A stretch of DNA of 64,000 bases from Butyricimonas sp. Marseille-P3923. GTDB taxonomy: Bacteria > Bacteroidota > Bacteroidia > Bacteroidales > Marinifilaceae. Positions 29,191 through 46,610 of this stretch are shown piece after piece (position 1 is the first letter of the stretch; every line of letters starts with the position of its first letter). The stretch covers positions 1,240,001 through 1,304,000 of the forward strand of contig NZ_FXXL01000007.1 in NCBI RefSeq assembly GCF_900184685.1. The letters run 5' to 3'. The notes beneath the pieces are model-generated. The model was not told the origin of the DNA. It worked only from the letters and a program-made list of their open reading frames with translations, and searched no databases. The position numbers were made by a program, and so were the translations under genes.

Positions 29191-29243
29191 AAACTCCTCC
29201 GTCAGCTTCGCTGCCACCTCCTCTATAAACAGAGGAGGAGCTG
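29191..29243 (-). repeat. Short copy S1 of the dispersed multi-hairpin repeat
   Basis: Read on the minus strand it keeps hairpin H1 (CTCCTCT-GTTTAT-AGAGGAG) and the terminal GACGGAGGAGTTT, but lacks the central part. It lies 24 bases from the oppositely oriented long copy L1, giving an inverted pair. Confidence 0.75.
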
Positions 29244-29267
29244 GTGACTCATCCCGAAGACGGTGAG

Positions 29268-29406
29268 TAATTCAGCTCTCCCTCTGTTTATAGAGGGAAA
29301 CTGGCGAGTAAGAGAGAAATGACAGAGAGCTTGCTCGTTGTCTGTCGAACGAGAGCCAGTTCGAGTCCGTTTCGGACTCAATACCCCGGAGGGGGGAGGG
29401 AGTTTA
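29268..29406 (+). repeat. Long copy L1 of the dispersed multi-hairpin repeat (subtype B)
   Basis: Order: CAGCTC, H1 CCCTCT-GTTTAT-AGAGGG, AACTGGC (pairs with GCCAGTT further on), H2 with GAGC-TT-GCTC, H3 GAGTCCG-TTT-CGGACTC (perfect), CCCC-GGA-GGGG, end GGAGGGAGTTTA. The stop codon of the acidic protein gene (29404-29406) lies inside its last bases. Confidence 0.8.
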
Positions 29407-29817
29407 ATACCGGGGAAAACCTATTTCCTCTCCGTCCTCGGCAATATACTCATCCAAGTCTTGACAATCGGTATCCTCGTCTTCCTCAAATTGTATAGAA
29501 AGATTGTTTACACGAGCGAATTGGTGACAACTTTTGAAATCGGCATAGCGTTCGTCAATCTCATCCTCGAATAATTTCCCACGATCTTCCACGGATAAAT
29601 TTTCCAATTCTTCCTCGTGTTCCTGCAATATATCCAGTATAAATTCAGCTGCCCAACTACCCAATTCCCGTTCCAGAGTCCAATCGGAATTTTGTCGATC
29701 CAGAATTTGAAATATCTCTTGTAAATAGGGCGTTTCGCCCCATTCCTCGTACAATTGGATCACATCGTCCTCTTCCCCGTATTCGGTCTTTAATCTTTCA
29801 AGCAACTCATTATTCAT
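29404..29817 (-). CDS. Acidic hypothetical protein
   Basis: 137 residues, no family recognised. It is strongly acidic (runs such as FEEDEDTDCQDLDEY and EHEEELENLSVEDRG) and probably all-helical, without signal peptide or membrane span, so cytoplasmic. It lies downstream of the third SusC/SusD pair but behind a strong hairpin terminator (29861-29896), so it probably has its own expression. Its last codon and stop fall in the end of repeat L1, which may have trimmed or replaced the original C-terminus. Composition resembles immunity or antirestriction-like DNA mimics, but that is only a resemblance. Confidence 0.6.
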   Translation of the reverse strand: MNNELLERLKTEYGEEDDVIQLYEEWGETPYLQEIFQILDRQNSDWTLERELGSWAAEFILDILQEHEEELENLSVEDRGKLFEDEIDERYADFKSCHQFARVNNLSIQFEEDEDTDCQDLDEYIAEDGEEIGFPRY

Positions 29818-29860
29818 GATTACATCTTTTTTCTTTTATTTCAATGCGCTAAAGTATGAA

Positions 29861-29896
29861 AATAGGTCGAAAGTTCAAAAGAACTTCCGACCTATT
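29861..29896 (-). terminator. Hairpin terminator of third SusCD operon
   Basis: Arms AATAGGTCG (29861-29869) + AAGTTC (29871-29876) and GAACTT (29881-29886) + CGACCTATT (29888-29896), one mismatch, loop AAAA. It sits 25 bases after the SusD stop. The following T-run is modest (TATTTTC). Confidence 0.7.
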
Positions 29897-29920
29897 CGTC
29901 AAAGGCAGAACCTTTTTCTA

Positions 29921-31417
29921 TTACATCGGCCAACCCGGATTAGGTTCAACAAGCGGTTCAAGACTCAACACACTGTTGGGAATAGGGAAATAAAGCAAAT
30001 CCGGATTGTCACGTCCCACGAGAGAGGGTACCAATTCGAAGGCTTTATCGAAACGTACCAAATCCCACCAACGCTTACATTCAAAAGCAAATTCCAACAA
30101 CCGTTCCTGCAAAATGGCAGCATCGTTTTCCGCGGGAGTACCGTTCACGAACGCGTGGTCGGCGTACTTCTCGCCGTAGGCACGTTCCCGGACTTCTTTC
30201 ATCTCGTCGGTCGGGTCTTCGCCCAACCCGTTCTTCGCCTCCGCTTTCATCAGTAACACATCGGCATAACGGTAAAGGATAATATCGTCCACGAAATAGC
30301 GGACTCCCGAAACCACCGTCCCTCGTCCTTTCATAGCCATGGTCCCGTAATACTTCCGCTCACCCTCTACCGTCTTGTATATTTCAAGAAAAGTAGCGTC
30401 TTTCCGGCTATCGTCCGGTGCATACTGTTCCCGCAAATGTTTGGACGGTGATTGTTCCATCAATCCGCCCCCGGCACCGATAATTTCCAGTATCTCCGGT
30501 TCAATATCAGGAGAAATAGTAGCCGGAGAAATATGCATCATGTCAAAATAATTATTATCCGCCTCGTTCAACTTGTAATTGACAGCCATCAAGATTTCGT
30601 CATTCCCTTTATTCTCGTAAGCGAACACGTCTTTAAACTCCGGCAGAAGACGGATTCCGGCGATTTTCTGCACTTCCTCGCAGGCTCCCAAGGCCGTGCG
30701 GTAATCGGTTTCGCCACCGTTCTTACGGCGTGCCGTCCAAAGATAAACATCCGCTTTCAACGCGTAAGTTGCCGCTTTAGACCAATGGTTTCTGCCTGTT
30801 TCGAAAGCCGTCGAGGGAAATAATCCCAAAGCATCTTCAATATCATCCTTGATAAAGGTAAACAACTCCTCCTCGGTTGCCCTTGCTTTCTGCACTTTCG
30901 CGGGATCGTATCCCTCCATTGCTTCCGTCCGCAGGGGCACTCCGCCCCATATCTTCACCATGGTGAAATACACGAATGCCCGCATGGCATGCGCTTGCGC
31001 CAGTATCAGGTTACGTTTGGACTCGTCAGTGAAAGGAATTTCCGGTACCTTTGTCAGAAGCAAATTTGCCGCGTTCACCGTGGCATAGAATTTTTCCCAC
31101 GTGGGTCCGAAACTTGCACTCAAGTCATTATCCCTGTATTTCTTGTAATTATCCCCCACGATAGCCTCCGATTCCAGCGTTTCGCTTCGCATCTCTCCCC
31201 AGATAAACATATTATCCGTCGTATTATCCCGCAGGAACACGTACATTCCCGCCAATCCGCCCTCCGCGTCCGATTCGGTTTTCCAGAAAGAGTCAGCCGT
31301 GATAACACTCGTGGGATCAACATCCAGTATGTCACACGCCCCCATGGCAAGTCCCATACTCACTCCCATGGCTATATGAATTATTTGTCTTTTCAATTTA
31401 CACATGGCTCGATTCAT
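29921..31417 (-). CDS. SusD/RagB-family outer-membrane lipoprotein
   Basis: 498 residues. The lipobox GLAMGAC precedes DILDVDPTSVITADSFW, a standard SusD start. A second ATG four codons in (31405) would also give a good signal peptide. SusD core: AHAMRAFVYFTMVKIWGGVPL, then VLLMKAEAKNGLGEDP and RLLEFAFECKRWWDLVRFDKAF, ending in FPIPNSVLSLEPLVEPNPGW. The gene begins on the base next to the SusC stop, so translation is coupled. Unlike the other two SusDs here it has no fasciclin-like or small lipoprotein companions. Confidence 0.93.
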   Translation of the reverse strand: MNRAMCKLKRQIIHIAMGVSMGLAMGACDILDVDPTSVITADSFWKTESDAEGGLAGMYVFLRDNTTDNMFIWGEMRSETLESEAIVGDNYKKYRDNDLSASFGPTWEKFYATVNAANLLLTKVPEIPFTDESKRNLILAQAHAMRAFVYFTMVKIWGGVPLRTEAMEGYDPAKVQKARATEEELFTFIKDDIEDALGLFPSTAFETGRNHWSKAATYALKADVYLWTARRKNGGETDYRTALGACEEVQKIAGIRLLPEFKDVFAYENKGNDEILMAVNYKLNEADNNYFDMMHISPATISPDIEPEILEIIGAGGGLMEQSPSKHLREQYAPDDSRKDATFLEIYKTVEGERKYYGTMAMKGRGTVVSGVRYFVDDIILYRYADVLLMKAEAKNGLGEDPTDEMKEVRERAYGEKYADHAFVNGTPAENDAAILQERLLEFAFECKRWWDLVRFDKAFELVPSLVGRDNPDLLYFPIPNSVLSLEPLVEPNPGWPM

Positions 31418-34400
31418 TTAAAATGTGATAGATACTCCTGTAATAATGTTTTTCGGAATAGGATAACGCCCGTTATCTTGTCCGCCCTCTTCCGGGTTCA
31501 ATCCCGAATAATTCGTGAAATAGTGAAGGTTATTCCCCGTCACGTGCATACGTACTCCGGCAAGTCCCACTTTCCGCAGCCACCTTCTCGGGAACTCGTA
31601 ACTCAAAGATATCTCGCGCAAACAAAGGAAATCCCCCTTCTCCACGTAAATATTAGCTCTCTCCGGGTGATTATAAGCACTATTCCAGATATAACAAGGC
31701 ATTGAAGCATCGTCCCCTTGTTCTTTCCATGAATTTACCGCCATGTTTTTCGTGAGATTCCCGTCGCCTTGCGAGTTATTGTTCATAAAGCGGGCTGCAT
31801 AATTATATATCTTGTGTCCCAGCGTGTAGTCGAAACGGAACGAGAAGGTAAATCTACGGAACGAGAGTTTGCTAGAGAATCCTCCCGTCCACTTGGGATA
31901 GTAGTTTCCCAAATATACTTTATCCTTGGAATCAATCTGTCCGTCACCGTCCACATCCCGGAATATGGAGTAACCGCCGTATTTAGTCTTGTCATTACCC
32001 GGAATCATGGTATTCACGGTCGGATCTGCCTGAGCCTCCGCGTCAGTAGCGTACACACCTTCAATCACGTGACCGTAAATATCACCGACACGTCCGCCTT
32101 CCTGCAAACCGCCTACCCAAGCGTATTCACCCCGGGAAGGTACCCACACGTATTCCCCGCCGATACGGTTATTCTCGGCCCCATTCTCCGGCAACTTCAA
32201 TATCTTGTGTTTCGTGTTCGTGACCGTGGCTGCCATAGTCCATTGCACGGCACTCCATCCCGGAAGGATATTAGCGTTCACTTCCAACTCGAATCCCTTG
32301 TTTTCCAAGCGTCCCAAGTTCGTGTAAATATTGGCAAACCCGGTAGAAGGCGGCAATGAAAGTTGAGTGATCAAGTTATCCGTCACCCGGCGATAGTAAT
32401 CAAACAGTATCCCCACCCGTTGGTTGAACAGCCCGATATCGGCACCGACGTCAAAAGTCTTGGACTGTTCCCATTTCAGTTCCGAGTTCGGGATGACCGT
32501 GTTCTGGATGGCAGAAGTTCCATCGTAGATTTTTCCCACGGCATACGTACCCCGTGCCTGAAAATCATCCAGTCCGCTGATATTTCCCGTCACCCCGTAA
32601 CTACCTCTTAATTTCAACTGGATAAAACTCAACGGCTCCCAGAATTTCTCGTTATGCACGTTCCAACCGACGGATACACCGGGGAAAAATCCCCACTTGT
32701 GGTCGTCACCCAAGTTGGACGCTCCATCGAAACGGGCACTCAGCGAAATCAGGTACCTGTCCTTGTAATCGTAATTCACGCGGGCAAAGAATCCGGCTAT
32801 CGCCTGCGTGCTTTCATCCCCTTTCACGCTTTTTGCCGAAGCGGAAGCGTTCAACGTGGGAATCAAATCGGTCGCCGCTCCTTGCCCCTCGGCATTCAAC
32901 GTCGATTTCTCCCTCCCGAAATAGGAGAACCCGGCTTTCACGTCCACGTTATGCGCGTCGGCAAACAGCTTATTATACCCTAACACCAAATCCATTTGTC
33001 CCTGCAACGTTTTCGTGTAATATCCTTTCGCTTCCCGTGAATCGTTAAATGTCATGGAACCGTTCCAATAAGACGGGATGAAGGAATAACCGTCCGTGGT
33101 GTACTTGTACATGGACAACTGGGGGGTAAACCTGAAACCGGGGAGAAATTCCCAGTCCGCGGCAAGTGAAAGAGAAAGGTTATCCTTACTGTTCTTTCGC
33201 TTGTCATTGTTCAAATGGTAAACGGGATTACCGATACTGCGATTTTGTCCCGGTGCCAGCGTTCCGTCCTCGTACGTGTATTTCGCAGTATGGGGCAAAG
33301 ATGCCGCCCGGTAAAAAATCTGCTCGAGATTATATACCTCGTTATTACTTGAAGTGGTGTACATCATCCGCCCCGACACGTTCAGATTGTCCCGCAATTT
33401 AAGACTGCCGTTCAAGCTGAAAGAAAGACGGCGGTACTTGGTCGTGATCACCGTTCCCTCGCTATCCATGTACCCTAACCCGGCATAAAACGTAGCTTTA
33501 TCGCTTCCACCCGAAACGGTCAGGTTATGCGAGTACGTGTAAGCCGTACGGTAAATCAAATCCTGAAAATCCGTATCCTTGAATATAATCGTCTTCGAGG
33601 GATCAATCGGGTCCGGCATACTCTCCCACCCCTCGTTCAACTTGTGTTTATTGGCTTCCGTCAAGTATTGCGTCGTGTAAGCCGTGTTATTCGTCAAATC
33701 GTTTCCCGTACCGAAACCGAGAGCCGAATTAAGACGGTCCAAAGCACTGGCGTTGTAGCGGGAAGCGTACTGCATACTTTTCCGGTTCATCTCGATATAC
33801 TCCCGCCCGGAAGCCAGATCATATTTTTCCCCGGGTTCGGAAACTGTCAACCCGAACGAATAATTAGCCTGTATCTTGCCCGGCTTTCCGCTTTTCGTGG
33901 TGACGATCACCACACCGTTGGAAGCTCTTGCCCCATAGATAGCGGTGGAAGCGGCATCCTTCAATACTTGAAGCGACTCGATATCATTACTGTTCAAGTC
34001 GGCAAGATCGGTACGAATGATCCCGTCCACGATATAAATAGGTGCCGCCCCGTTCATGTTATTGATCGAAGTACCACCCCGGACAATCACCCTCGGCGCC
34101 GCGCCGGGTTGCCCGGACGTACTCTGCACCTGTACCCCGGAAACGTTGCCTTGCAATGCCGAAGCGAGATTGGTATAAGGCACGTTCTCCAAAGCCGAAG
34201 GGGGCAGTTTAGTGATAGCGGAGGTTACTTTTTCCCGTGCCTGTGTCCCGAACCCGACGACCACGATTTCGTCCATCCGTATCCGGGTAGGACGCAACGT
34301 CACGTTCACCGTCTTCTGGGAAGAGGACAATTTTATTGTCCTTGTTTCATATCCCAAGAAACTGAATTCAAGCAAACTATCCTGTTGCATCAGATTCAAG

Positions 34401-34621
34401 GTGTACTGCCCTTCGTCATCCGTGGCGGAACCTCTTGTAGTTCCTTTAATCAAAACGAGCACTCCTGCCATGGGTTCCCTGTTCTCGTCAAGAACCCGTC
34501 CTTTTATGGTACGTTGCGATTCCTTGGCCTTATCGTCTTGGGCACATAAGGTCAAAGGCAAAGCCGAGAAAAGAAAGATCCATAAAAACGAATTGGCTAA
34601 TGTAAATTTAACTTTTTCCAT
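31418..34621 (-). CDS. SusC/RagA-family TonB-dependent transporter without STN domain
   Basis: 1067 residues. Signal peptide (FLFSALPLTLCAQ), a carboxypeptidase-regulatory-like domain at about 38-115 (IKGRVLDENREPMAGVLVL), a TonB box (MDEIVVVGFG), a plug with VLKDAASTAIYGARASNG and a C-terminal barrel ending ITGVSITF. It lacks the N-terminal STN signalling domain of the two other SusCs, and no sigma/FecR pair is adjacent, so its control must be different, probably by a distant regulator or constitutive. It forms a two-gene operon with SusD; no hydrolase is near, so the ligand cannot be inferred. Confidence 0.94.
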   Translation of the reverse strand: MEKVKFTLANSFLWIFLFSALPLTLCAQDDKAKESQRTIKGRVLDENREPMAGVLVLIKGTTRGSATDDEGQYTLNLMQQDSLLEFSFLGYETRTIKLSSSQKTVNVTLRPTRIRMDEIVVVGFGTQAREKVTSAITKLPPSALENVPYTNLASALQGNVSGVQVQSTSGQPGAAPRVIVRGGTSINNMNGAAPIYIVDGIIRTDLADLNSNDIESLQVLKDAASTAIYGARASNGVVIVTTKSGKPGKIQANYSFGLTVSEPGEKYDLASGREYIEMNRKSMQYASRYNASALDRLNSALGFGTGNDLTNNTAYTTQYLTEANKHKLNEGWESMPDPIDPSKTIIFKDTDFQDLIYRTAYTYSHNLTVSGGSDKATFYAGLGYMDSEGTVITTKYRRLSFSLNGSLKLRDNLNVSGRMMYTTSSNNEVYNLEQIFYRAASLPHTAKYTYEDGTLAPGQNRSIGNPVYHLNNDKRKNSKDNLSLSLAADWEFLPGFRFTPQLSMYKYTTDGYSFIPSYWNGSMTFNDSREAKGYYTKTLQGQMDLVLGYNKLFADAHNVDVKAGFSYFGREKSTLNAEGQGAATDLIPTLNASASAKSVKGDESTQAIAGFFARVNYDYKDRYLISLSARFDGASNLGDDHKWGFFPGVSVGWNVHNEKFWEPLSFIQLKLRGSYGVTGNISGLDDFQARGTYAVGKIYDGTSAIQNTVIPNSELKWEQSKTFDVGADIGLFNQRVGILFDYYRRVTDNLITQLSLPPSTGFANIYTNLGRLENKGFELEVNANILPGWSAVQWTMAATVTNTKHKILKLPENGAENNRIGGEYVWVPSRGEYAWVGGLQEGGRVGDIYGHVIEGVYATDAEAQADPTVNTMIPGNDKTKYGGYSIFRDVDGDGQIDSKDKVYLGNYYPKWTGGFSSKLSFRRFTFSFRFDYTLGHKIYNYAARFMNNNSQGDGNLTKNMAVNSWKEQGDDASMPCYIWNSAYNHPERANIYVEKGDFLCLREISLSYEFPRRWLRKVGLAGVRMHVTGNNLHYFTNYSGLNPEEGGQDNGRYPIPKNIITGVSITF

Positions 34622-34880
34622 ACGATCTTCAATATTCTATTTATCAATTATTCCATAAATTCATTGTTCCTCCTTTTCCGTCAATCCAACTACTTCTCCC
34701 GACTTTATTAACCTTCATGCACACGGAAAACAGTAACCATACCTGAATATTTTTCAAAGAATATACCGAAAACAACAAAAAGCAACAATCGACTTTACCT
34801 CAACAACATACCCGAACGGACAAACGTGGAAAATGAGGAATCCCCGTCCGCACTTTGTGGAAAAATACCACACTTCGGTT

Positions 34881-34970
34881 TTCGCCTTCGGCGAGTTGCA
34901 GGTTATATTCGCCTTCGGCGAGTTGCAGGTTGCAGGTTGCATTTGCCGCAAGCGGCAAGTTACAAGTTGC
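34881..34970 (+). repeat. Mini-hairpin repeat cluster
   Basis: TCGCC-TTC-GGCGA twice (34882-34894, 34909-34921 approximately), then TTGCCGC-AA-GCGGCAA, joined by GTTGCAGGTT/GTTACAAGTTGC linkers. Stems change sequence while staying paired. Confidence 0.75.
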
Positions 34971-34985
34971 TTTTCTAGCGTTAAA

Positions 34986-35131
34986 GACTGTATTCCAGCT
35001 CTCCCTCTGTTTATAGAGGGAAACTGGCGAGTAAGAGAGAACAGACAGAGAGCTTGCTCGTTGTCTGTCGAACGAGAGCCAGTTCGAGACCGGTTTCCGG
35101 GCTCAATACCCCGAAGGGGGGAGGGAGTTTA
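34986..35131 (+). repeat. Long copy L2 of the dispersed multi-hairpin repeat (subtype B)
   Basis: CTGTATTCCAGCTC, H1 CCCTCT-GTTTAT-AGAGGG, AACTGGC ... GCCAGTT pairing, H2 with GACA/TGTC and GAGC-TT-GCTC, H3 GAGACCGG-TTT-CCGGGCTC, CCCC-GAA-GGGG, end GGAGGGAGTTTA. It is close to L1 except in H3 and flanking words. Confidence 0.8.
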
Positions 35132-35229
35132 TTAATTGTAGATTTAGCGATTTTACATTGAATGATTCCGGTCGCACGAGCGACGCTTCGTTAATCATTG
35201 AATCGACAATCATTGAATCACTTAATCAA

Positions 35230-35280
35230 TAAACTCCTCCGGCACTCCGTGCCACCTCCTCTATAAACAGAGGAGGAGCT
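35230..35280 (-). repeat. Short copy S2 of the dispersed multi-hairpin repeat
   Basis: Inverted relative to L2. It retains H1 and the GGAGGAGTTT end, with a GGCAC-TCC-GTGCC hairpin replacing the GCAGCGAAGCTGAC of S1. This L-S inverted pair parallels L1/S1. Confidence 0.75.
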
Positions 35281-35384
35281 CGAATACCGCCTTGCTTCGG
35301 GAATCTTTTCAATCTTCAATCTAAAATCTTAAATCATAAATCTTAAATATTCCCTTTCTCCCGCCGGAATACAAAATATTTCTT

Positions 35385-35392
35385 TAACTTTG
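35385..35392 (+). promoter_or_regulatory. -7 box TAACTTTG for the DUF4468 fusion gene
   Basis: Exact TAnnTTTG match 77 bases before the start codon, just after the repeats end. Confidence 0.5.
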
Positions 35393-35468
35393 AGAGCGGC
35401 TTCTATTGTTTTCCCCCGATTTGACGGGGCAATACCCGTACTGAAATATTTATTAAATCTGACATACT

Positions 35469-36629
35469 ATGATGAAGCGTCTTTTACTTATTTTTTGCCT
35501 CTTACCCGCGTTCGCTTTCGCGCAGGAAGAAGTTGACAGCAAATACATGATCGGCGCCGTTCCCGTGGTGGACGGTAAAGTGATGTTCAAGAAAGAAATC
35601 AAAGCCCCTAATTTGTCCAAAGATCAAATCTTCGATGCCGTGTCGGCATGGGCAAATTCCCGGTTTAAAACGGATAAAGGTAACTGGGGACAAGTCGCGT
35701 ACTCGAACAAGGAAGAAGGGCAAATCGCTTGCTACGGCAGCGAATATCTCGTGTTCGCCGACAAAACGTTCTCTCTCGACCGGGCAAAAACCAACTATCG
35801 GGTGAACTTCGTTTGCTCTCCCGGCAAATGCGTCATGGAAATCACGAACATCCATTATCTCTACCCGGAAGACAGCAAAGACCGTCTGGCGGCGGAAGAT
35901 TGGATCACCGATGAGCAAGCCATGAACAAGGACCGGACAAAACTGATCAAACGAATTGCCAAATTCCGTATCAAAACTGTCGATCTCGCGGAAAACTTGT
36001 TCGAGGGTGCGGAAAAGAGCCTCGGCGTGCAACCCGCGGCAGCACAAAACGTACCCACGCCCCCGGCAGTAGCCCCTCCCGCCCAAGCGGTGGAGAACAT
36101 CGCTCCCGTGTCGGGTGAAGCCCTGCAAGGTTACAAGCGGATCGCTCCCGACAAGATTCCCGGAAACATCATCAAAATGCTTTCCGAAGACTGGATGCTG
36201 ATCACGGGCGGGAACAACGAGAAATTCAACCCCATGACGGCAAGCTGGGGCGGACTGGGATACTTGTACAACAAACCCGTGGCTTTCTGTTTCATCTCCC
36301 CGGCACGCTACACGTATGACCTGATGGATAACGGCGACACCTACACGCTCACGTTCTACACCGAAACGTACCGCGAAGCGCTGAACTATTGCGGGCACAA
36401 CTCCGGCAAGGATGCCGATAAAGTAAAGGGAGCCGGACTAACCCCTGTCACCACCCCTTCCGGCAGCAAAGCGTTCTCGGAAGCATGGATGATTATCGAG
36501 TGTCGCAAAATGATTTCCCAGACCATCAACATCGACGGCATCTCCGATCCCGAACTCAAAAAACAATGGTCGGGTAAAGCCATGCACAAGATGTTTATCG
36601 GCGAGATCTTGAATGTATGGGTGAAATGA
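35469..36629 (+). CDS. Exported DUF4468 - flavin reductase-like fusion protein
   Basis: 386 residues. A signal peptide (LLLIFCLLPAFAFA-QE) is followed by a DUF4468-type domain at about 30-180 (MFKKEIKAPNLSKDQIFDAVSAWANSRF; YRVNFVCSPGKCVMEITNIHY). A Pro/Ala-rich linker (about 190-212) leads to a C-terminal domain resembling the FMN-binding flavin reductase/flavoredoxin fold: IPGNIIKMLSEDWMLITGG, FNPMTASWGGLGYLYNKPVAF, RYTYDLMDNGDTYTLTFYT, GKDADKVKGAGLTPV. Free-standing versions of the second domain are cytoplasmic. Here it would be exported and linked to a DUF4468 domain. It is a single-gene unit with its own promoter box; hairpins and a terminator follow. The flavin-binding function is inferred. 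Confidence 0.75.
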   Translation: MMKRLLLIFCLLPAFAFAQEEVDSKYMIGAVPVVDGKVMFKKEIKAPNLSKDQIFDAVSAWANSRFKTDKGNWGQVAYSNKEEGQIACYGSEYLVFADKTFSLDRAKTNYRVNFVCSPGKCVMEITNIHYLYPEDSKDRLAAEDWITDEQAMNKDRTKLIKRIAKFRIKTVDLAENLFEGAEKSLGVQPAAAQNVPTPPAVAPPAQAVENIAPVSGEALQGYKRIAPDKIPGNIIKMLSEDWMLITGGNNEKFNPMTASWGGLGYLYNKPVAFCFISPARYTYDLMDNGDTYTLTFYTETYREALNYCGHNSGKDADKVKGAGLTPVTTPSGSKAFSEAWMIIECRKMISQTINIDGISDPELKKQWSGKAMHKMFIGEILNVWVK

Positions 36630-36676
36630 AACTTGCCAAAGGCAAGTTTCAGGTTGTATTTGCCGCGAGCGGCAAG
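36628..36676 (+). repeat. Mini-hairpins directly after the DUF4468 fusion gene
   Basis: GAAACTTGCC-AAA-GGCAAGTTTC would exceed a simple stem and starts inside the stop codon (36628-36650). A second stem TTGCCGC-GA-GCGGCAA lies at 36660-36675. Both are stem variants of the mini-hairpin family. Confidence 0.7.
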
Positions 36677-36718
36677 TTAATTGAAAATTGAAAATGAAAG
36701 TGCTACTGAAGCGGGAAA

Positions 36719-36759
36719 GCCGGGATACCGCCACCTTCGGCAGTATCCCGGCTTCTTTT
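36719..36759 (+). terminator. Long intrinsic terminator
   Basis: Fourteen-base arms GCCGGGATACCGCC (36719-36732) and GGCAGTATCCCGGC (36739-36752) with one mismatch, loop ACCTTC, then TTCTTTT. It serves the gene ending at 36629. Confidence 0.8.
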
Positions 36760-36778
36760 CCGGTTTGTTTTAGATTCA

Positions 36779-36842
36779 ACAACTTGCAACTCGCCGAAGG
36801 CGAACAAATCATTTTCAATTTTCAACTTTCAATTTTCAATTG
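36779..36842 (-). repeat. Mini-hairpin plus ATTTTCA-type AT-rich repeat
   Basis: TCGCC-TTC-GGCGA stem (minus strand) followed by iterations of ATTTTCA/ACTTTCA ending AATTG. An apparently identical AT-rich string lies at 44679-44712 and a similar one, inverted, at 61245-61278. It provides the stop of the frameshifted tail of the DUF6266-like gene. Confidence 0.7.
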
Positions 36843-37014
36843 TCTCGTTGCCGCCTCCAATCCCGCCAGTTTTATCTCGAAAGCTGACTTTTTCGCTTTC
36901 ACCGCTTCCTTCTCGGCGGCGGCGGTTGCTTTCTTCACGCCCGCTTTCGCCCGCGTGATAGCCTCGCGCTCCTCGGGCGTGGCGGTCACCTCGCGGACTG
37001 TCTCTTCTACACCT
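36822..37014 (-). pseudogene. Out-of-frame C-terminal tail of the DUF6266-like gene
   Basis: Directly after the stop at 37015 a +1 frame reads coding-like: SRGVEETVREVTATPEE, then Ala/Lys-rich helical sequence (AITRAKAGVKKATAAAEKE) and AFEIKLAGLEAATRQ, before stopping in the AT-rich repeat. Codons have the same high third-position G+C as the upstream gene. This looks like a coiled-coil tail cut off by a one-base change. Upstream of 37015 the frame becomes arginine-rich shadow sequence. Confidence 0.45.
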
Positions 37015-38283: not shown

Positions 38284-38375
38284 TATAATAACGACATAAC
38301 GACAATATATTTAGTTAATCCGATAGCTCGGCAGTTAAATGTTTGCCGGAGGGATATAGTCTAATATTAGATTAT

Positions 38376-38440: not shown

Positions 38441-38448
38441 AGCGTTCA

Positions 38449-38595
38449 TGACTGTATTCCAGCTCATCCTCTGTTTATAGAGGAAACCCGCGAGTAAGCG
38501 AGGGCAATAGGGAAGCTTGCTTCCTGATTGCCGAGCGTGAGCTGGTTCGAGACCGGCTTCCGGGCTCACTTGGACGCGAAGCAGACGGAGGAGTT
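38449..38595 (+). repeat. Long copy L3 of the dispersed multi-hairpin repeat (subtype A)
   Basis: CTGTATTCCAGCTC (CCAGCTC pairs with GAGCTGG at about 38539-38545), H1 CCTCT-GTTTAT-AGAGG, H2 with GGCAAT/ATTGCC and GGAAGC-TT-GCTTCC, H3 GAGACCGG-CTT-CCGGGCTC, end GACGGAGGAGTT. It lies between the ACCTGC array and the AraC-type gene. Confidence 0.8.
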
Positions 38596-38623
38596 CGATC
38601 TAAAATCTAAAATCATAAATCAC

Positions 38624-39727: not shown

Positions 39728-40869
39728 GGCTCCCCTCCTTCCCGCCCGGCGACAAGGGCGCGGGTGTACTGCCTGTACTCGCCGAATCCCGCTTGTTTGA
39801 CCAACGCGCTCTCGCTCTTGCCCTCGTTGCCGGGCAGCGAGCGGAGCCGTTCCACCTCCCGCAACCGCCAGTGGTTCAGGTAGCGGTTGAAATTCATCCC
39901 GTACTCGCGGTTGATAAACGCCGATATTACCGTCCGGTTCACGTCCAGCGCCTCCACCAGATCCGTTATCTTGTAACCCGGGTTCAGGTAAGGTTTCTCC
40001 TTCACGAAATACGTTTCCAGCCTCAACCGCGACATACTGCCGGAATGTTGCCTGCGCGGCGTCTTTTCAGCCGCGTCCCCCGGCACTTTTCCCTCCGGTT
40101 CGGGCACGGCGTAAAGCACGTACTCGCGCCGTATCACGTGGTAGGTCAGCAACACGTGTTGCGCGGCGATGCTCAACGTCACCACGCTCGTCCAGATGGA
40201 ATAAAGTATTTTACCGCGCGGCATAAAGGTAGGCAACAGCGACGAGAGCAACGACGCCACGGAGATCGCCACGAGGAAAATCACCCACCGTGCCGGCGCA
40301 CGCGCCAGCGTGTCCCGCTCGCTCATCTTTTTATAATAACGTACCAGTACCCCGATCGTCAATGCGTAATACACCAACCCGAAAATCACCCGCGCCAAGG
40401 GCTTTATCGTGAAAAAGCGGGTGTACGCCCCGTATCCCGGCGGCGTCACCAGCGCCTTGCCCGTGACGATTTCCAGCTGCACCTCGCCGGGCACGAACAG
40501 CGACCACCCCAGCATCACCCCCGCCAACACCCCGGGCGCAAGGTAATGCCACGGCGGGAAACGCTCCGGCAACCCCAGTCGCGTAAGGTAACGGATCACG
40601 CGGTAAAAGAATATCGACGGGAGCACGAAGCCCAAAAGGCAAACCGTGTTCAGCAGGACAAACAGTCCCGGCTGGAACTCGTAACAAAAAAACGTGTACC
40701 AACCGAGTGCCGACAGGGAAAGATAGACCAGAAGCACCCGTTTCAACTTTTTCTCCCCCGGCGTCAAACTGTCCGGCAGGGAAAAAAGAGCGAGTATCCC
40801 GCAGGACACCGCCGAGAAAACGGGCACGAGCACCGTCATGGCTATCGGGTAGGCAGCAGACACATCCAT
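39724..40869 (-). CDS. Membrane-embedded AraC-type transcription regulator (paralogue)
   Basis: 381 residues with the same design as its neighbour: hydrophobic spans from about 10 to 240 (IAMTVLVPVFSAVSCGILALF; VLLNTVCLLGFVLPSIFFYRV; VIFGLVYYALTIGVLVRYY), then an AraC domain at about 290-375 (RLETYFVKEKPYLNPGYKI, LVEALDVNRTVISAFINREYGMNFNRYL in blocks, LVKQAGFGEYRQYTRA). A TATATTTG box ends only 5 bases before the ATG, so the transcript may be nearly leaderless, or Met11 (40839) may be the start. The two AraC-like proteins may work as a heterodimer. The region is G+C-rich. Confidence 0.85.
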   Translation of the reverse strand: MDVSAAYPIAMTVLVPVFSAVSCGILALFSLPDSLTPGEKKLKRVLLVYLSLSALGWYTFFCYEFQPGLFVLLNTVCLLGFVLPSIFFYRVIRYLTRLGLPERFPPWHYLAPGVLAGVMLGWSLFVPGEVQLEIVTGKALVTPPGYGAYTRFFTIKPLARVIFGLVYYALTIGVLVRYYKKMSERDTLARAPARWVIFLVAISVASLLSSLLPTFMPRGKILYSIWTSVVTLSIAAQHVLLTYHVIRREYVLYAVPEPEGKVPGDAAEKTPRRQHSGSMSRLRLETYFVKEKPYLNPGYKITDLVEALDVNRTVISAFINREYGMNFNRYLNHWRLREVERLRSLPGNEGKSESALVKQAGFGEYRQYTRALVAGREGGEP

Positions 40870-40873
40870 GCTT

Positions 40874-40881
40874 CAAATATA
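40874..40881 (-). promoter_or_regulatory. -7 box TATATTTG for the AraC-type pair
   Basis: Exact TAnnTTTG match immediately before the ATG at 40869. If used, transcription would start at or next to the ATG. Confidence 0.4.
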
Positions 40882-40947
40882 TCGCGTTTTTGTCAAAAAA
40901 CGACTATCATAGCCCGAAATAGTACGTTTTTTACCTTTTTGCACGGA

Positions 40948-40995
40948 ATTACGATTTGGCAAGTGAAAAAAATACCCCTATTACGATTTGGCAAG
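40948..40995 (+). promoter_or_regulatory. Direct-repeat operator candidate ATTACGATTTGGCAAG
   Basis: Two exact 16-base copies at 40948-40963 and 40980-40995, 32 bases apart (about three helical turns), in the 248-base region between the divergent AraC-type pair and the DUF3575 gene. AraC-family dimers commonly bind such direct repeats. Confidence 0.65.
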
Positions 40996-41117
40996 CAATA
41001 TTTTGTTGAATTGTCTCCCGGCGGATTTCATTTTTACCTAGTTTTACATTCACGAATCACCGCACGCGGTGCCATTCCGGTAAATCGACAAAATACTTAT
41101 ATATAAATAACAGCTTT

Positions 41118-42236
41118 ATGAAACTTTCTCGACTAACTAAGATCCTACTCTTTTTGATAGCGGGCATGCCGGTTTCCGGTACACCGCCCGCCCGGGGGGC
41201 GGACAGAGTGGCGGCAGATTCCGTCGTCACTTTCCGCTTCCTGCCGGGCAACGATATGTTTTTCCTCCGGGGCAACGAGGCGGAACTCCGCCGCCTGCTC
41301 TCGCTCGTGGACGAATACCGCGTGCGGATAGCCGACGGCAGCATGCCTCTCGCCGTGGACAGCTACTGTGCCTCCCTCCCCTCCGAACGGGAAAACCTCG
41401 ACATGGCACGCGTCCGCGCCAACCGCGTGAAGTCGGAACTCATCACGCGCCGGGGACTCAAGGAAGAGAACTTCATAACCACTAACCGCGCCGTCGCCCG
41501 CGACGGCAACCGGGACGCGGTAATCATGACCCTCTGCGTCCCGGCAAAAGCGGTAACCCCGCCCGCCGCGGAGAAACCCAAGGAAGAGGCTCCACCCGCC
41601 GCCGCGGAGAAAAAACCGACAGAAAAGAAAACGGTGACGGTCGAAGAAACGATAACAGAAAACGCACCCGCGAAGGCAGTTGCACCCGCGCCACCAGCGG
41701 AACCGGAATCCCCGGCACGCCTGTACCGCTTCGCCATACGGACGAACCTGCTGCACGACGCCCTGCTGCTTCCCGCACTGGGAGCGGAGTGGCGCGTGAA
41801 CCGCCATGTCGGCATACGGCTCGACGGCAGCCTCGCGCGGTGGAACGGCGACCGCGGCAAGGTGCAGAAGGTATGGCTGCTCAACCCCGAAGCAAGGTGG
41901 TACCTGCTCGACGGCAAACGCTTCTACGCGGGAGTATCGGGCAGCTACGGCGAGTACAATATATACAAGTACCCGATAGGCAGCTTCCTGTCGAAAGACA
42001 CCGGCTACCAAGGCACGACGTGGAGCGCGGGCGTGACAACGGGCTACCAGCTCTATCTCTCGCGCTGCTTCTCCATCGACTTCAATCTCGGACTGGGCTA
42101 CACGCGCTTCGACCACGACACGTTCGACGCAGTTGAAGGAACACGACGGTACAAGGAAAGAGGGAAAACAAAGAATTTCTGGGGACCGACACAAGCAGGA
42201 ATCAGCCTCGTGTGGACTACCGGAAGGAACAAGTAG
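41118..42236 (+). CDS. DUF3575-family outer-membrane protein with N-terminal OmpA-like segment
   Basis: 372 residues. Signal peptide (ILLFLIAGMPVSGTPPARGA). Residues 35-140 resemble an OmpA-C/peptidoglycan-type fold (FLRGNEAELRRLLSLVDEYR; MARVRANRVKSELITRRGLKEEN). A Pro/Ala/Lys-rich linker spans about 145-195. The DUF3575 beta-barrel-like domain follows at 200-370 (YRFAIRTNLLHDALLLPALGAEW; YLLDGKRFYAGVSGSYGEYN; LGLGYTRFDHDTF). DUF3575 genes often accompany fimbrial or surface-assembly clusters in Bacteroidetes. It is divergent from the membrane AraC pair, across the ATTACGATTTGGCAAG repeats, and in operon with the DUF4270-like gene 13 bases downstream. Very G+C-rich. Confidence 0.8.
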   Translation: MKLSRLTKILLFLIAGMPVSGTPPARGADRVAADSVVTFRFLPGNDMFFLRGNEAELRRLLSLVDEYRVRIADGSMPLAVDSYCASLPSERENLDMARVRANRVKSELITRRGLKEENFITTNRAVARDGNRDAVIMTLCVPAKAVTPPAAEKPKEEAPPAAAEKKPTEKKTVTVEETITENAPAKAVAPAPPAEPESPARLYRFAIRTNLLHDALLLPALGAEWRVNRHVGIRLDGSLARWNGDRGKVQKVWLLNPEARWYLLDGKRFYAGVSGSYGEYNIYKYPIGSFLSKDTGYQGTTWSAGVTTGYQLYLSRCFSIDFNLGLGYTRFDHDTFDAVEGTRRYKERGKTKNFWGPTQAGISLVWTTGRNK

Positions 42237-42249
42237 AACAAATACACGA

Positions 42250-43620
42250 ATGAAAGATATGAAAATTACGATTACATCACTTCTCGTCCCGGCGGCAATC
42301 CTGTTGCTCGCCGCTTGCGACGTGAAAGACCCGATTCACGACCCGGAGCCTCCCGTGAAGGTCACCGTCGTGACGGAGGAACTTCCGGCACTGACCGTAA
42401 AGCGCGACTCCTTCGCGACCTCTTCCCCCCGGATGCTGCTGTTGGGACGGACGGACGATATCACGGGGGTGACGCTCGCGACACCCTATTTCACCCTCTC
42501 GCCTCCTTCCGGCGGGGAGGTGCGGGCAGACCACGTGTACGATTCGATCACCTTTTTCGCCCGCCACGGCGGGACGGTGTGGGGAGATACGACCTATATG
42601 CAGCAAATCCACCTCTACCGCCTGCGGGAACTTCCCCCGTCCGCCCCGGTCTTCAATAACGCCACTGTCCCGCACGAGGCTGAACCTTTGGGTTCGTTCA
42701 CGTTTTGGCCCGGAGCGGGGAGAGTGCCGCCCGTTCTGCGTTTCCGGCTCAACAACGCCGACGCCCTCGGGCGGGAGATGCTCGCCATGCTCGCTGCCGG
42801 GAGCAGCGTGATGGGGGATGCCGCCAAGTTCCGGGAATATTTGAAAGGGCTGGTCGTGATGGCCGACCCGTCGAACACCTGTATCTCCACCCTCGACCCG
42901 TCGGCAGGCGGCATGGGCATCACCCTCCACTGGCACGATGGCGGCGGCACTGCCCGGAGCTGCTCCTTTGTCACGGGCGCGGCGGAGGATGCCCCGTATA
43001 TGTTTATGAGCACGGTCAACGACCCGGCGGGGACGCTTTATAGCGTACTCCAACAGCAGACGGACGCCCTGCCGTTTGCCGATGCCGCCCGACAGGGATA
43101 CCCCGACGGGCAGGCAGTGGTGTGCGGCACGGGCGGGTACATGGTGCGGATGGAATTGCCGGACGCGCTTCCGGGACAAACGGAGGGACGCACACCGGCG
43201 AAGGTGGAAATCCGGTGGCATGTCCGGCAGCCGGGATGGTACACGACACCGCCCGTGGAAGGGGAAGAGGAAGAGGAAGTCAAAGAGGAGATGACCAATA
43301 CGCCTTACCCGCTGCCTGCCGCCGTGCGCCTCTACGAAACGGATGGCGACAACCGCGTGAAGGCCGCGGTGACCGACGCGGAGGGGAAACCGGTGGACGC
43401 CATCCTGACGGATGCCTCCCCGACGTATGCCAAGGACGGAATATACACCGCCGACATCACGCACTACTACCTCTCGCGGCTGAGCCGCGCCGCCGGGCAA
43501 GGCATGGTGGCACTGCTGGCGGGGGTTCCGGTGGATGAGCTGACCGCCTCGGCGGGGCTGATGGTGATGGACTCCCTCCCCGAAATCCGAGTGCATTGGC
43601 ACGAACCCGTGGAGGAATAA
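42250..43620 (+). CDS. DUF4270-like lipoprotein
   Basis: 456 residues from ATG 42250 (lipobox LLLAAC; another ATG three codons later). Blocks suggestive of DUF4270: the opening ALTVKRDSFATSSPRMLLLGR, VYDSITFFARHGGTVWGDTT, IHLYRLRELP, REYLKGLVVMADPS, GMGITLHWHDGG and the late GQAVVCGTGGYMVRMELP. An acidic insert (EGEEEEEVKEE) precedes the last 100 residues. The family is a Bacteroidetes surface lipoprotein group of unknown role. It follows the DUF3575 gene, with which it should form an AraC-controlled surface operon. The whole gene has strong G+C bias at third positions. Confidence 0.65.
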   Translation: MKDMKITITSLLVPAAILLLAACDVKDPIHDPEPPVKVTVVTEELPALTVKRDSFATSSPRMLLLGRTDDITGVTLATPYFTLSPPSGGEVRADHVYDSITFFARHGGTVWGDTTYMQQIHLYRLRELPPSAPVFNNATVPHEAEPLGSFTFWPGAGRVPPVLRFRLNNADALGREMLAMLAAGSSVMGDAAKFREYLKGLVVMADPSNTCISTLDPSAGGMGITLHWHDGGGTARSCSFVTGAAEDAPYMFMSTVNDPAGTLYSVLQQQTDALPFADAARQGYPDGQAVVCGTGGYMVRMELPDALPGQTEGRTPAKVEIRWHVRQPGWYTTPPVEGEEEEEVKEEMTNTPYPLPAAVRLYETDGDNRVKAAVTDAEGKPVDAILTDASPTYAKDGIYTADITHYYLSRLSRAAGQGMVALLAGVPVDELTASAGLMVMDSLPEIRVHWHEPVEE

Positions 43621-43701
43621 AGCAACAAGGTACACGACTACCGGACAAATCCGGCACAGGCTGAAACCAATCTCGAGTTAGTAACAAATAAACCACACAC
43701 C

Positions 43702-44407
43702 ATGAAAACGATCTTTGACTTTTTCTCCATCCGGCGGGTAAACTTACGCAACATCATCGGTTTCAAACGACTGGGCAACTGGGTACTCCGACCGAAGCAC
43801 AACCGGAAGCATACCGGACCCAAGCATCCCGAGCAGGAACGCACGAACGAGGTTTTCGGCAAGGCAAGGAAGTTCGGCGCCGCTTTCGCCCGGACGATGG
43901 CGGACTACCCGGCATGGGCAACCGCCGCCACCCTCTACTGGGCAGGACGCACGGGCGACAACCTCATGTTCCACATGAACCACGACAAGTTGATAGGACG
44001 CGTCGTGGCGTGTTTCCACCTCTTCCGTTTCAGCTTCGGGCCGAGAAGCCTGCCGTGGAACCTCGAGGCTCGCGCCGACGGCAACACCATCACCATCACG
44101 TGGCAGGACAACCGCCGCTCCCCCCATTGCTCTCCCCACGACCCGCCACTCCCGCCGCTCCCCCCATTGCTCTCCCCACGACCCGCTACTCGTCGGCGTC
44201 CTCTTCGACAACAAACCCGGCAAACCCATGCTCGTCGCCGACAGCGGCGTCACCCGCGCCAGTTGCGGCATCTCCATCGTCCTCAACGACAAGCAACCCC
44301 GGAAAATCCACCTCTACCCCTTCTTCTGCAACCCCGAGAGAACGGAATTTTCGGAAAGCCAACATTTGGAAGTAACGACCGATTCGATGAGCCTGACGAT
44401 TCGGTGA
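43702..44407 (+). pseudogene. Gene of unknown function frameshifted by a 40-bp tandem duplication
   Basis: From ATG 43702 the frame reads MKTIFDFFSIRRVNLRN ... LGNWVLRPKHN ... ADYPAWATAATLYWAGRTGD ... ITITWQDNRR, then enters a 40-base tandem duplication (44112-44191) and loses frame, continuing as Arg/Pro-rich nonsense to 44421. Removing one copy restores a frame reading DPLLVGVLFDNKPGKPMLV, GISIVLNDKQPRKIHLYPFF, FSESQHLEVTTDSMSL and stopping at 44405-44407, giving a 221-residue protein. The duplication copies differ by one base. No family is recognised with confidence; general layout recalls the DUF6266-like protein nearby. It lies 81 bases after the DUF4270-like gene. Confidence 0.75.
44112..44191 (+). 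repeat. 40-bp tandem duplication inside a gene
   Basis: Copies 44112-44151 and 44152-44191 match except C/T near the end (CCCGCCACTC against CCCGCTACTC). Forty is not a multiple of three, so copy number sets the reading frame. Confidence 0.9.
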
Positions 44408-44450
44408 TTTATGATTTATGATTTATGATTTTAGATTTTAGATTTTAGAT

Positions 44451-44600
44451 TAAACTCCTCCGTCAACTTTGCGTCCAAGTGAGCCCGGAAGCCGGTCTCG
44501 AACAAGCTCATGCTCGGCAATAGGGAAGCAAGCTTCCCTATTGCCCTCGCTTACTCGCCGGTTTCCTCTATAAACAGAGGAGGAGCTGGAATACAAACTA
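44451..44600 (-). repeat. Long copy L4 of the dispersed multi-hairpin repeat (subtype A)
   Basis: Same order as L3, inverted. H2 is a perfect 13-base-arm palindrome here (44517-44544; GCAATAGGGAAGC arms). H3 is GAGACCGG/CCGGGCTC, H1 is TCCTCT-GTTTAT-AGAGGA. Confidence 0.8.
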
Positions 44601-44613
44601 GAACGCGAGAAAA

Positions 44614-44832
44614 GTAACTTGCAACCTGCCGAAGGCAAATACAACTTGCAACCTGCAACTCGCCGAAGGCGAATAGAACATTTTCAATTTTCAACTTTCA
44701 ATTTTCAATTGTTATCCCTACCTTTGTGATAACGAATAAAACAAATTGAACTTGTAACCTGCCGAAGGCAAATGTAACTTGCAACCTGTAACTCGCCGAA
44801 GGCGAATATAACCTGCAACTTGCCGAAGGTAA
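44614..44832 (-). repeat. Mini-hairpin repeats and ATTTTCA words upstream of the ATPase gene
   Basis: Hairpins TTGCC-TTC-GGCA and TCGCC-TTC-GGCGA (minus strand) occur around 44627, 44660, 44760 and 44795, separated by GTTGCAAGTTAC-type linkers. The AT-rich string at 44679-44712 matches 36810-36842. Confidence 0.7.
44719..44726 (+). promoter_or_regulatory. -7 box TACCTTTG for the ATPase/nuclease gene
   Basis: Exact TAnnTTTG match, giving a leader of about 110 bases composed largely of mini-hairpin repeats. Confidence 0.5.
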
Positions 44833-44843
44833 AAAAAAAGACC

Positions 44844-46409
44844 ATGAACCAAACGTTATCCCATCTCCGGAAGATGCCTATCGGCATACAGAGTTTCGAG
44901 AAACTCCGCCGGGAAGGTTTCGTGTACGTGGACAAGACGGAACTGGTGTACCGCCTTGCCAGTACGCCAACCCCCTATTTCCTGAGCCGCCCGCGGCGCT
45001 TCGGGAAGAGTCTTTTGCTCTCGACGCTGGAAGCGTACTTCCTAGGCAAGCGCGAGCTTTTCGAGGGGCTTGCCGTCGAGCGGCTGGAGACGGAATGGGC
45101 GACTCACGCCGTGCTGCATCTCGACCTGAACGCAGGGCAATACCAGACCGTGGAGGAACTCGACAAGATGCTGGAATACCGCCTCGGGGAATGGGAACGG
45201 GAGTACGGGGTCAGTATACCGGGACCGACGCGTTCCATTCGTTTCTTGGAGGTAATCAAGGCGGCACACGCCCGGACGGGGCGGGGGGTAGTGGTGCTCA
45301 TAGACGAGTACGACAAGCCGCTGCTCAACAGCTTCGATAACCCTGAGTTGCAGGAACAATACCGCTCGATACTGACGGCATTTTATTCAGTGTTAAAAAC
45401 CGCCGACCCGTGGTTGCGTTTCATCTTCATCACGGGGGTGACGAAGTTCGCGCAGATGGGGATATTCAGCAATCTCAACCAACTCTCCGATATCAGCCTC
45501 GACTTGGATTATGCCACGCTTTGCGGGTTGACACTCTCCGAGATAGAGGCGAACTTCGCGCCGGAAATAGACCGGTTGGTGGCATACCACGGGGGGACAC
45601 GCGAGGAGATGATAGAGGAATTAACCCGCCGCTATGACGGCTATCATTTCAGTAGCGGTGACGTGCCGAACGTGTTCAACCCGTTCAGCCTGTTGAGCGT
45701 GATGGAGAAACGTTTGTTCCAGAACTACTGGTTCGCAACGGGTACGCCGACGTTTCTGGCACGCATGCTGCAGCAGACGGATTTCGACTTGCAGGAACTG
45801 GACGGCATCGAGGTAACCGCCTCGTCGCTCACCGACGACCGTGCCGACGTGAAGAATCCCGTGCCGATGATCTACCAGAGCGGTTACCTGACGATAAAGG
45901 GATATGACAAGCGTTTCCAGACGTACACTCTCGGGTTCCCCAACGAGGAGGTGAAGTACGGGTTCCTGAATTTTGTCGCCCCGTTTTACTCCGCCATACC
46001 GGGAAGCGAAACGGATTTTTATATCGGCAAATTCGTGCAGGAACTGGAAAAAGGGGATGTCAACGCCTTCATGACACGACTGCGGGCGTTCTTCGCCGAT
46101 TTTCCTTACGAGTTAAACGCCAAGACGGAACGGCATTATCAAGTGGTGTTCTACCTTGTATTCAAGTTAATGGGACAATTCACCGACGCCGAGGTACGCA
46201 GTGCCCGAGGACGGGCGGACGCCGTGGTGAAAACCTCGCTATACATATATGTCTTCGAGTTCAAACTCGACGGCTCCGCCGAGGAAGCCCTCGCCCAAAT
46301 CGACGATCGGGGATACCTCATCCCCTACTCCGCCGACAGCCGGAAAACCGTCAAGGTGGGCGTGGAATTCAACGCGGAAGAACGTAATATCGGGAAGTGG
46401 ACTTGTTGA
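44844..46409 (+). CDS. AAA-ATPase_like / PD-(D/E)XK nuclease family protein
   Basis: 521 residues from ATG 44844 (an in-frame TTG at 44820 lies in repeat sequence). N-terminal AAA-ATPase_like domain: MPIGIQSFEKLRREGFVYVDKT, P-loop-like SRPRRFGKSLLLSTL, Walker B VVVLIDEYDKPLL, sensor-like FIFITGVTKFAQMG. C-terminal PDDEXK_9-type nuclease fold: GRADAVVKTSLYIYVFEFKL with the D...EFK triad. The family is massively multiplied in Bacteroidales and of uncertain biological role. It is flanked on both sides, in the same orientation, by long repeats L4 and L5 and by mini-hairpins. No toxin or methylase partner is adjacent. The gene is intact. Confidence 0.88.
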   Translation: MNQTLSHLRKMPIGIQSFEKLRREGFVYVDKTELVYRLASTPTPYFLSRPRRFGKSLLLSTLEAYFLGKRELFEGLAVERLETEWATHAVLHLDLNAGQYQTVEELDKMLEYRLGEWEREYGVSIPGPTRSIRFLEVIKAAHARTGRGVVVLIDEYDKPLLNSFDNPELQEQYRSILTAFYSVLKTADPWLRFIFITGVTKFAQMGIFSNLNQLSDISLDLDYATLCGLTLSEIEANFAPEIDRLVAYHGGTREEMIEELTRRYDGYHFSSGDVPNVFNPFSLLSVMEKRLFQNYWFATGTPTFLARMLQQTDFDLQELDGIEVTASSLTDDRADVKNPVPMIYQSGYLTIKGYDKRFQTYTLGFPNEEVKYGFLNFVAPFYSAIPGSETDFYIGKFVQELEKGDVNAFMTRLRAFFADFPYELNAKTERHYQVVFYLVFKLMGQFTDAEVRSARGRADAVVKTSLYIYVFEFKLDGSAEEALAQIDDRGYLIPYSADSRKTVKVGVEFNAEERNIGKWTC

Positions 46410-46464
46410 TTCAGTAATCTTATTGATTTGGTGATTTACGATTGCTTGATTGATGATTTTAGAT

Positions 46465-46610
46465 TAAACTCCTCCGTTCGCTTCGCGTCCAAGTGAGCCC
46501 GGAAGCCGGTCTCGAACCAGCTCACGCTCGGCAATCAGGAAGCAAGCTTCCCTATTGCCCTCGCTTACTCGCCGGTTTCCTCTATAAACAGAGGAGGAGC
46601 TGGAATACAA
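46465..46610 (-). repeat. Long copy L5 of the dispersed multi-hairpin repeat (subtype A)
   Basis: Same orientation as L4 and nearly identical over about 150 bases plus flanks (GATTTTAGATTAAACTCCTC on one side, GGAATACAAACTAGAAC on the other). H2 is GGCAATAGGGAAGC paired with GCTTCCTGATTGCC. Confidence 0.8.

Follow-up and report, generated by a model that had tools for sequence, protein, structure and literature searches.

An intergenic family of paired hairpin units in Butyricimonas, best read as being of the REP/BIME kind

The stretch of DNA analysed here (the window) comprises 64,000 nucleotides of the genome of Butyricimonas sp. Marseille-P3923 (contig NZ_FXXL01000007.1, positions 1,240,001 to 1,304,000). 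Between its genes lie seven copies of a hairpin repeat, five long (L1 to L5) and two short (S1, S2), and one worn copy. As read from the copies, a unit consists of AGCTC and a first hairpin (H1; CCTCTGTTTATAGAGG in this genome), followed by a mini-hairpin and a tail. The tail is GGAGGAGTTT in units of type A and GGGAGGGAGTTT in units of type B, and the arms of the first hairpin change along with it. Because the 3' arm of the first hairpin recurs in the tail, the 5' arm has two possible pairing partners. The long form, which occurs in A and B alike, has an additional module M of about 85 nt between first hairpin and mini-hairpin.

The copies were located with a short-form model of 57 positions, derived from 19 copies of this genome, and a long-form model of 141 positions, derived from 12. 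The two models recovered all seven copies, with long-form E-values between 3e-38 and 1.5e-44 for L1 to L5. S1, S2 and L1 to L5 were among the copies used for model building, so that their model E-values are not independent; the seven are also visible without any model, as direct and inverted repeats of the window. The features are, in order of position:

12306..12338, plus strand: worn A-like copy, the rest of the unit missing; blastn E 1e-4 (C1:1252306-1252338), short model E 0.15, long model E 0.11
29191..29249, minus strand: S1, short A unit (first hairpin, mini-hairpin and GGAGGAGTTT tail); short-form model E 8.8e-20
29250..29266, no strand: middle part of the S1-L1 linker, in a head-to-head pair with an H1-to-H1 distance of 61
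29267..29405, plus strand: L1, long B unit, module M at about 29299-29381 (read from the sequence); long-form model E 3e-38
34990..35130, plus strand: L2, long B unit, module M at about 35022-35106 (read from the sequence); long-form model E 1.5e-44
35231..35287, minus strand: S2, short A unit, tail-to-tail partner of L2; short-form model E 6.1e-21
38454..38596, plus strand: L3, long A unit, unpaired, within a 10-kb island; long-form model E 1.6e-40
44452..44594, minus strand: L4, long A unit, unpaired; long-form model E 2.7e-40
46466..46608, minus strand: L5, long A unit, unpaired, near the right edge of the 10-kb island; long-form model E 6.6e-42

An earlier note on this DNA had proposed five long and two short copies at these places, and the two models between them find all seven. 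It had also seen S1 and S2 as lying inverted beside L1 and L2, which is correct: S1-L1 is a head-to-head and L2-S2 a tail-to-tail pair of an A and a B unit. Its description of S1 and S2 as reduced to the first hairpin and the end was right with respect to the shortening, but the mini-hairpin beside the tail is also kept and only the internal module of about 85 nt is missing. The terminal words said to be common to the long copies need a similar correction, as the exact CTGTATTCCAGCTC is missing in L1, which has GTGAGTAATTCAGCTC. The worn copy, placed by the note at 12307-12345, is weak by the E-values listed above. The proposed subtypes (A: L3-L5, B: L1-L2) do not amount to two sets of long copies: A and B each exist in long and short form, and pair together.

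This pairing is a general property of the family. In fetched stretches of the same genome, 65 units were read, of which 46 make 23 pairs of neighbours. Twenty-one of these pairs are inverted A+B (10 head-to-head, 11 tail-to-tail); of the other two, one joins A and B on a single strand, and one is a head-to-head pair without assigned types. The H1-to-H1 distance of head-to-head pairs is 61 in 10 of 11 cases and 60 in the other, and the tail-to-tail distance is variable, ranging from 86 to 257. Unpaired units are of type A in 17 of 19 cases. The mobile unit is probably the A+B heterodimer.

Searching this genome and those of its family relatives with models built from the copies, a check proposed by the earlier note, gave many further matches. 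In the genome itself the short-form model has 73 matches at E<=0.01, and 87 at E<=1 with laxer filters; fewer than about ten copies genome-wide would have spoken against a family according to the note. A short-model match is found in 11 of 56 family genomes, among them all six of the same genus. Besides the 73 matches given above, the counts within the genus are 9 (G007), 20 (G010) and 42 (G006), with a minimum of 100 each for G008 and G009, at which scoring ended (the handles are our own); genomes of other genera have 68 (G011), 72 (G044), 4 (G012) and a single match in each of G005 and G055.

For the genomic position of the copies, genes were called by our own simple gene finder in the window and in 800 kb each of G008 and G009. 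None of 51 clusters of units lies inside a called open reading frame (ORF), in agreement with the earlier statement that copies lie only between genes. Among the 45 clusters of G008 and G009, some of which are orthologous such that the two sets overlap, 31 lie between co-directional, 13 between convergent and only 1 between divergent genes. As a background, 63 of 385 and 65 of 387 spacers of at least 30 bp are divergent in G008 and G009, respectively.

G008 and G009 are also suited to a comparison of sites with and without copies, as their long matches are mostly 95-97% identical. Over high-scoring segment pairs summing to 359 kb, 59 structural events were detected, and in 12 of them the first hairpin lies in the differing stretch. 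These are 10 composites present in one species only, one composite that is partly replaced and one that is in both species but rearranged. A thirteenth event concerns a composite common to both species, which differs just by module M; M was therefore gained or lost as a block. An optional internal module within a modular repeat is also known from the BOX elements of Streptococcus pneumoniae, a resemblance of plan. A separate sorting of 30 clusters from the first 400 kb of G008 and G009 gave 10 shared sites, 7 that are empty in the other species and 13 that were not placed.

According to our reading of the sequences, six of the 10 one-species-only composites face a different hairpin in the other species. 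Two of these are ordinary hairpins of about 30 bp with A and T runs at their flanks; four are a hairpin or composite of another family (CTCCCCCTTACACAGGGGGAG type). At one slot, a plain terminator-like hairpin is common to G006, G007 and G009, and G008 has the composite, which is therefore the newer state; G010 and the genome of the window have other sequences there. The CTCCCCCTTACACAGGGGGAG family deserves a remark of its own: G008 and G009 differ at the same sites, one having composites of it and the other solo hairpins (stretches L111-L150, L260-L279), and one of its G009 composites lies inside the loop of a terminator-like hairpin whose G008 counterpart is plain.

The earlier note had regarded the repeat as specific to the lineage. 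This is wrong, as the core of the A unit occurs in many copies in several phyla. A search pattern with a fixed GAA loop, CTCCGTCNGCTTCGCNGNCACCTCCYCT, covers the A tail, the mini-hairpin and the beginning of the first hairpin. It occurs in at least 109 genome-contig stretches (a lower bound and no census), at a chance expectation of about 0.001 according to our simple arithmetic. A shorter core pattern was then counted, at up to 2 mismatches, in 21 genomes picked because they hold a match, which is why only the copy numbers and the reversed control are informative: 17 genomes have 5-74 copies and four have a single one, and the reversed pattern is absent from all 21. Three of these genomes (G074-G076) look like G044, G010 and G011, already counted among the relatives. 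The multi-copy genomes include five of Clostridia (with Faecalibacterium, Eubacterium and Ca. Avispirillum), six of Alphaproteobacteria (Sphingomonas, Parvularcula, two Caulobacter, a Rhodospirillales and Oceanicaulis), a metagenome-assembled genome (MAG) labelled 'Proteobacteria', a MAG of Planctomycetota, and Bacteroidota. The plan of A unit, linker and B unit recurs in several clostridial copies. The genomes with one match (Margulisbacterium, Methylophilaceae, Bacteroides sp. 519 and a Bacteroidaceae) carry little weight, as chance or MAG contamination may explain them. Module M was searched in 80 of the at least 109 stretches and matched in four, three in an Odoribacter MAG and one, weakly, in a Bacteroidaceae MAG. 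Carriage of the family by phages was considered and rejected, the core pattern having no match in viral contigs.

A further feature of the unit is the loop of its mini-hairpin. Read on the tail strand of copies with a recognised tail, the loop has the form C-GNA-G in 26 of 29 cases in this genome, 41 of 44 in G008 and 36 of 38 in G009 (800 kb each for the latter two). In L4 the GNA form is lost, the loop reading GCAAAGT (read from the sequence). In the fetched loci of other genomes, 66 of 86 A-like units overlap the search pattern; the other 20 have C-GNA-G in 15, AAA in two and another hairpin in three cases. None of the 27 B-like units in these loci overlaps the pattern: 19 have C-GNA-G (GCA 7, GAA 7, GTA 5), six have C-GNNA-G, one has ATA, and in one no loop was found; all but the latter are in Clostridia (26 of 27). 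In two Clostridia genomes (Lapin-008__bin90 and Ca. Avispirillum faecium), 32 of the single changes from GAA fall on the middle base and five on the outer bases. As a control, other hairpins with stems of at least 7 bp were examined: C-GNA-G accounts for 0 of 21 triloops in G008 and 2 of 26 in G009. According to PMC4686876, DNA mini-hairpins are extraordinarily stable when G-C pairs close a GNA or GNNA loop. The loop rule fits single-stranded DNA (ssDNA) better than RNA, a question that the sequence alone cannot settle.

The folds of the whole units are strong as well. Four copies of this genome were folded singly on both strands (n=8); three folds beat 200 of 200 shuffles, and five were matched by 1 or 2 of 200. 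RNAalifold detected two-sided changes in 11 of 37 pairs of the long and in 3 of 11 pairs of the short alignment. Because the copies are related, the fold and covariation counts are support and not proof.

A paper on this hairpin family was found neither by names nor by sequence words, and the name 'palindromic variable repeat', looked for in connection with gut Firmicutes, did not turn up either. Among known systems, it comes closest to the CGTC-tagged repetitive extragenic palindromes (REPs) of Di Nocera et al. 2013 (PMC3733652), which in the available text are extragenic palindromes of several phyla without a dedicated transposase there. Most of their dimers are head-to-head, many are heterodimers, and the head-to-head spacer is usually conserved; they lie between unidirectional or convergent genes, and some dimers lie within larger palindromes. 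Apart from the lack of a transposase, for which the tests in our family covered the Y1 transposases (PF01797) and an ATPase/nuclease family with a gene near the copies (PF09820), all this resembles our family. According to the same text, a CGTC-REP has a stem of 8-9 bp in which A-T pairs come first, and a loop of 4-5 nt. Our unit, in contrast, has two hairpins, and the one beside CGTC has a short G-C-rich stem and a 3-nt loop in nearly all copies of this genome, whereas the first hairpin, with its longer stem, lacks the CGTC tag. The tag itself is seen as CTCCGTC before the mini-hairpin of A units, though its GTC is often pairable with GAC, and is absent from the B units of this genome. Moreover, tail-to-tail pairs (11) are as common here as typed head-to-head ones (10), and the unit may carry the module of about 85 nt, features that set it apart from the CGTC-REPs as described. 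With the bacterial interspersed mosaic elements (BIMEs) and REP doublets (REPINs) that belong to REP-associated tyrosine transposases (RAYTs) in E. coli and Pseudomonas, the family shares, as far as the accessible accounts go, inverted partner units, a conserved spacer, high copy number and a mostly extragenic position; unlike these, it lacks a GTAG/GTGG tag, and a Y1 transposase was detected neither in this genome nor in most carriers. The best reading is that the family resembles the CGTC-REPs but falls outside their stem and loop definition; we therefore file it with the REP/BIME kind, as CGTC-REP-like. The REP- or BIME-like character suspected in the earlier note is supported by the inverted pairs with their conserved head-to-head spacer and by the absence of clusters from called ORFs.

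With a probability of about 60%, we interpret the repeat as a non-autonomous, REP/BIME-like palindromic family that moves by means of hairpins folded in ssDNA and an enzyme acting in trans, and that persists as bidirectional terminators. Most likely, the strand ending in GGAGTTT would fold as single-stranded DNA, e. g. during replication. An enzyme supplied in trans, other than an IS200-type Y1 transposase, would then cut and join at the hairpins. Composites would be set down at the 3' ends of genes, often replacing a terminator hairpin, and the element would persist there by being able to do the terminator's job in both directions.

Several observations weigh against this interpretation. The mobilising enzyme was not found, the tested families being PF01797 and PF09820, and three carriers do have Y1 genes, namely the copy-rich G006 (42 matches) and G044 (72), as well as G005 (1). 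Most sites show no clean target-site duplication; CTAG stands on both sides at one site and AATTC forms direct repeats at another, and none is clear elsewhere. Nor do the two outer arms match copy by copy, a composite's own right arm scoring best in just 2 of 17 and 5 of 17 cases. In the window, two of six clusters lie between divergent genes (the others are two co-directional and two convergent); of these, L2/S2 is truly exceptional, and the divergent assignment of L4 is due to one short predicted ORF. Of the 10 one-species-only sites, four have no visible hairpin in the other allele. Another slot has six different sequences in six genomes, most of them hairpins by eye; such slots therefore turn over anyway, and replacement may not be special to the family. 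With respect to the loops, C-GNNA-G is also seen among the control hairpins, in 4 of 36 tetraloops of G008 and 2 of 30 of G009, and the opposite strand of CCCCGAAGGGG-type B loops can pass for an RNA UUCG tetraloop. Finally, the copies share descent, such that counts of loops and pairings are not counts of independent events.

A wider view, which we hold only tentatively and consider doubtful, is that of a further REP super-family extending over several phyla, whose signal would be the ssDNA mini-hairpin (C-GNA-G) and which would move by hairpin exchange at terminators through an enzyme yet to be found.

Alternatively, the units might be elements of the RNA level, i. e. bidirectional terminators or stabilisers of mRNA 3' ends that are selected for and spread between genes by recombination, without transposition. 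The position at 3' ends and the scarcity of copies between divergent genes of G008 and G009 are in agreement with this model, as are the strong folds on both strands and the fact that composites occupy places of terminator-like hairpins in relatives. The excess of G-U pairs over A-C mismatches on the tail strand fits it as well, but is compatible with any folded single strand, RNA or DNA. However, the third base is a non-purine in 4 of 6 GNNA loops, contrary to the RNA GNRA rule, and the GNA triloops fit the DNA motif (available text of PMC4686876). Recombination alone hardly explains at least 100 matches in each of two species, or an occurrence in several phyla, and we regard the model as unlikely.

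Still less probable is the idea that the units are the REPs of a RAYT (TnpA-REP) whose Y1 transposase is now lost or too diverged for recognition. Inverted dimers, conserved head-to-head spacers and an extragenic position are as in REPINs and BIMEs (PMC3116915 and PMC2817692, in the text available), and G006, G044 and G005 combine family matches with Y1 genes. Yet the Y1 family PF01797 has no match in the genome of the window and none in 8 of 11 carriers, whereas 28 of 45 non-carriers among the family genomes have one. The surroundings of three Y1 genes (one each from G006 and G044, and one of eight from G005) were searched and contain no unit. Furthermore, GTAG or GTGG, expected 0-2 nt 5' of the hairpin according to the RAYT-type rule in the accessible part of PMC6006769, is absent from the hairpin foot, where units read GTATTCCAGCTC or AAACTCCTCCGTC before the hairpins. 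A RAYT or Y1 transposase was rejected as the mobiliser on the first two of these grounds.

The least probable alternative is a miniature inverted-repeat transposable element (MITE) family, a likeness raised by the earlier note, here of a classical DDE insertion sequence and suggested by outer repeats GGG-TGTC-AAAAGTC around many G008 and G009 composites and by the CTAG flanks of one site, but not supported in view of the facts that the outer inverted repeats are clear (score >=22) in 17 of 34 composites, that the commonest arm (<=2 mismatches) is missing from the genome of the window and from G006 and makes, in G008 and G009, 15 inverted pairs lying 146-246 bp apart and not around a gene, and that in G006 a similar stem occurs as a terminator-like hairpin with no composite. 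An autonomous element with these outer repeats was looked for in four genomes and rejected, as the commonest arm forms no gene-sized pair there. A copy-specific matching of the two outer arms had been suggested by reading the sequences and is not supported by scoring. The GGTTCGAGACC stretch had a tRNA-like appearance; ARAGORN finds no tRNA in the window. A known Rfam family, which the earlier note would have taken as evidence against a new one, has no match at the gathering score in the window, where only a weak mir-128 match appears up to E=1 in 29000-47000.

The surroundings of the copies are noteworthy in themselves. Positions 36630-46732 form a 10-kb island between two convergent genes, which is absent at that place from four related genomes: G010 has 61 bp with a terminator-like hairpin there, G008 and G009 have 215-220 bp, and G007 has a 1.6-kb insert of its own; G006 was not resolved at this site. 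The island contains L3, L4 and L5, a DUF3575 gene, a gene with a sub-threshold HTH_18 match and an AAA-ATPase/PD-(D/E)XK gene. The latter is flanked by L4 and L5 as direct repeats (44434-46645; 198 nt, 92% identical). As a partner of the family this gene was rejected: PF09820 has 17 matches genome-wide, two of them within 1 kb of family matches. The flanks of the units at 34874-34985, 38373-38445 and 44616-44839 often hold other repeats, namely AACTTGCAACCTG with CGCCGAAGGCG, TTTTAGATT runs and ATTTTCAATTTTC. Two further observations were made outside the window. An interspersed repeat of about 150 nt (G008 stretch L122:3219-3370) has many matches in the genome of the window, e. g. C1:626926-627070, and a tRNA-gene-like segment of about 220 bp is inverted between G007 (stretch L335) and G008 (stretch L122).

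In 2013, the question of REPs that have no dedicated transposase was left open (PMC3733652). The family described here offers a tractable case, with a pair of species that are mostly 95-97% identical over long matches and have gained or lost composites, a loop rule pointing to ssDNA, and, for the search for a common enzyme, genomes with at least 100 matches. It also suggests that mobile hairpins supply or displace transcription terminators, so that the annotation of terminators and that of repeats should be read together.

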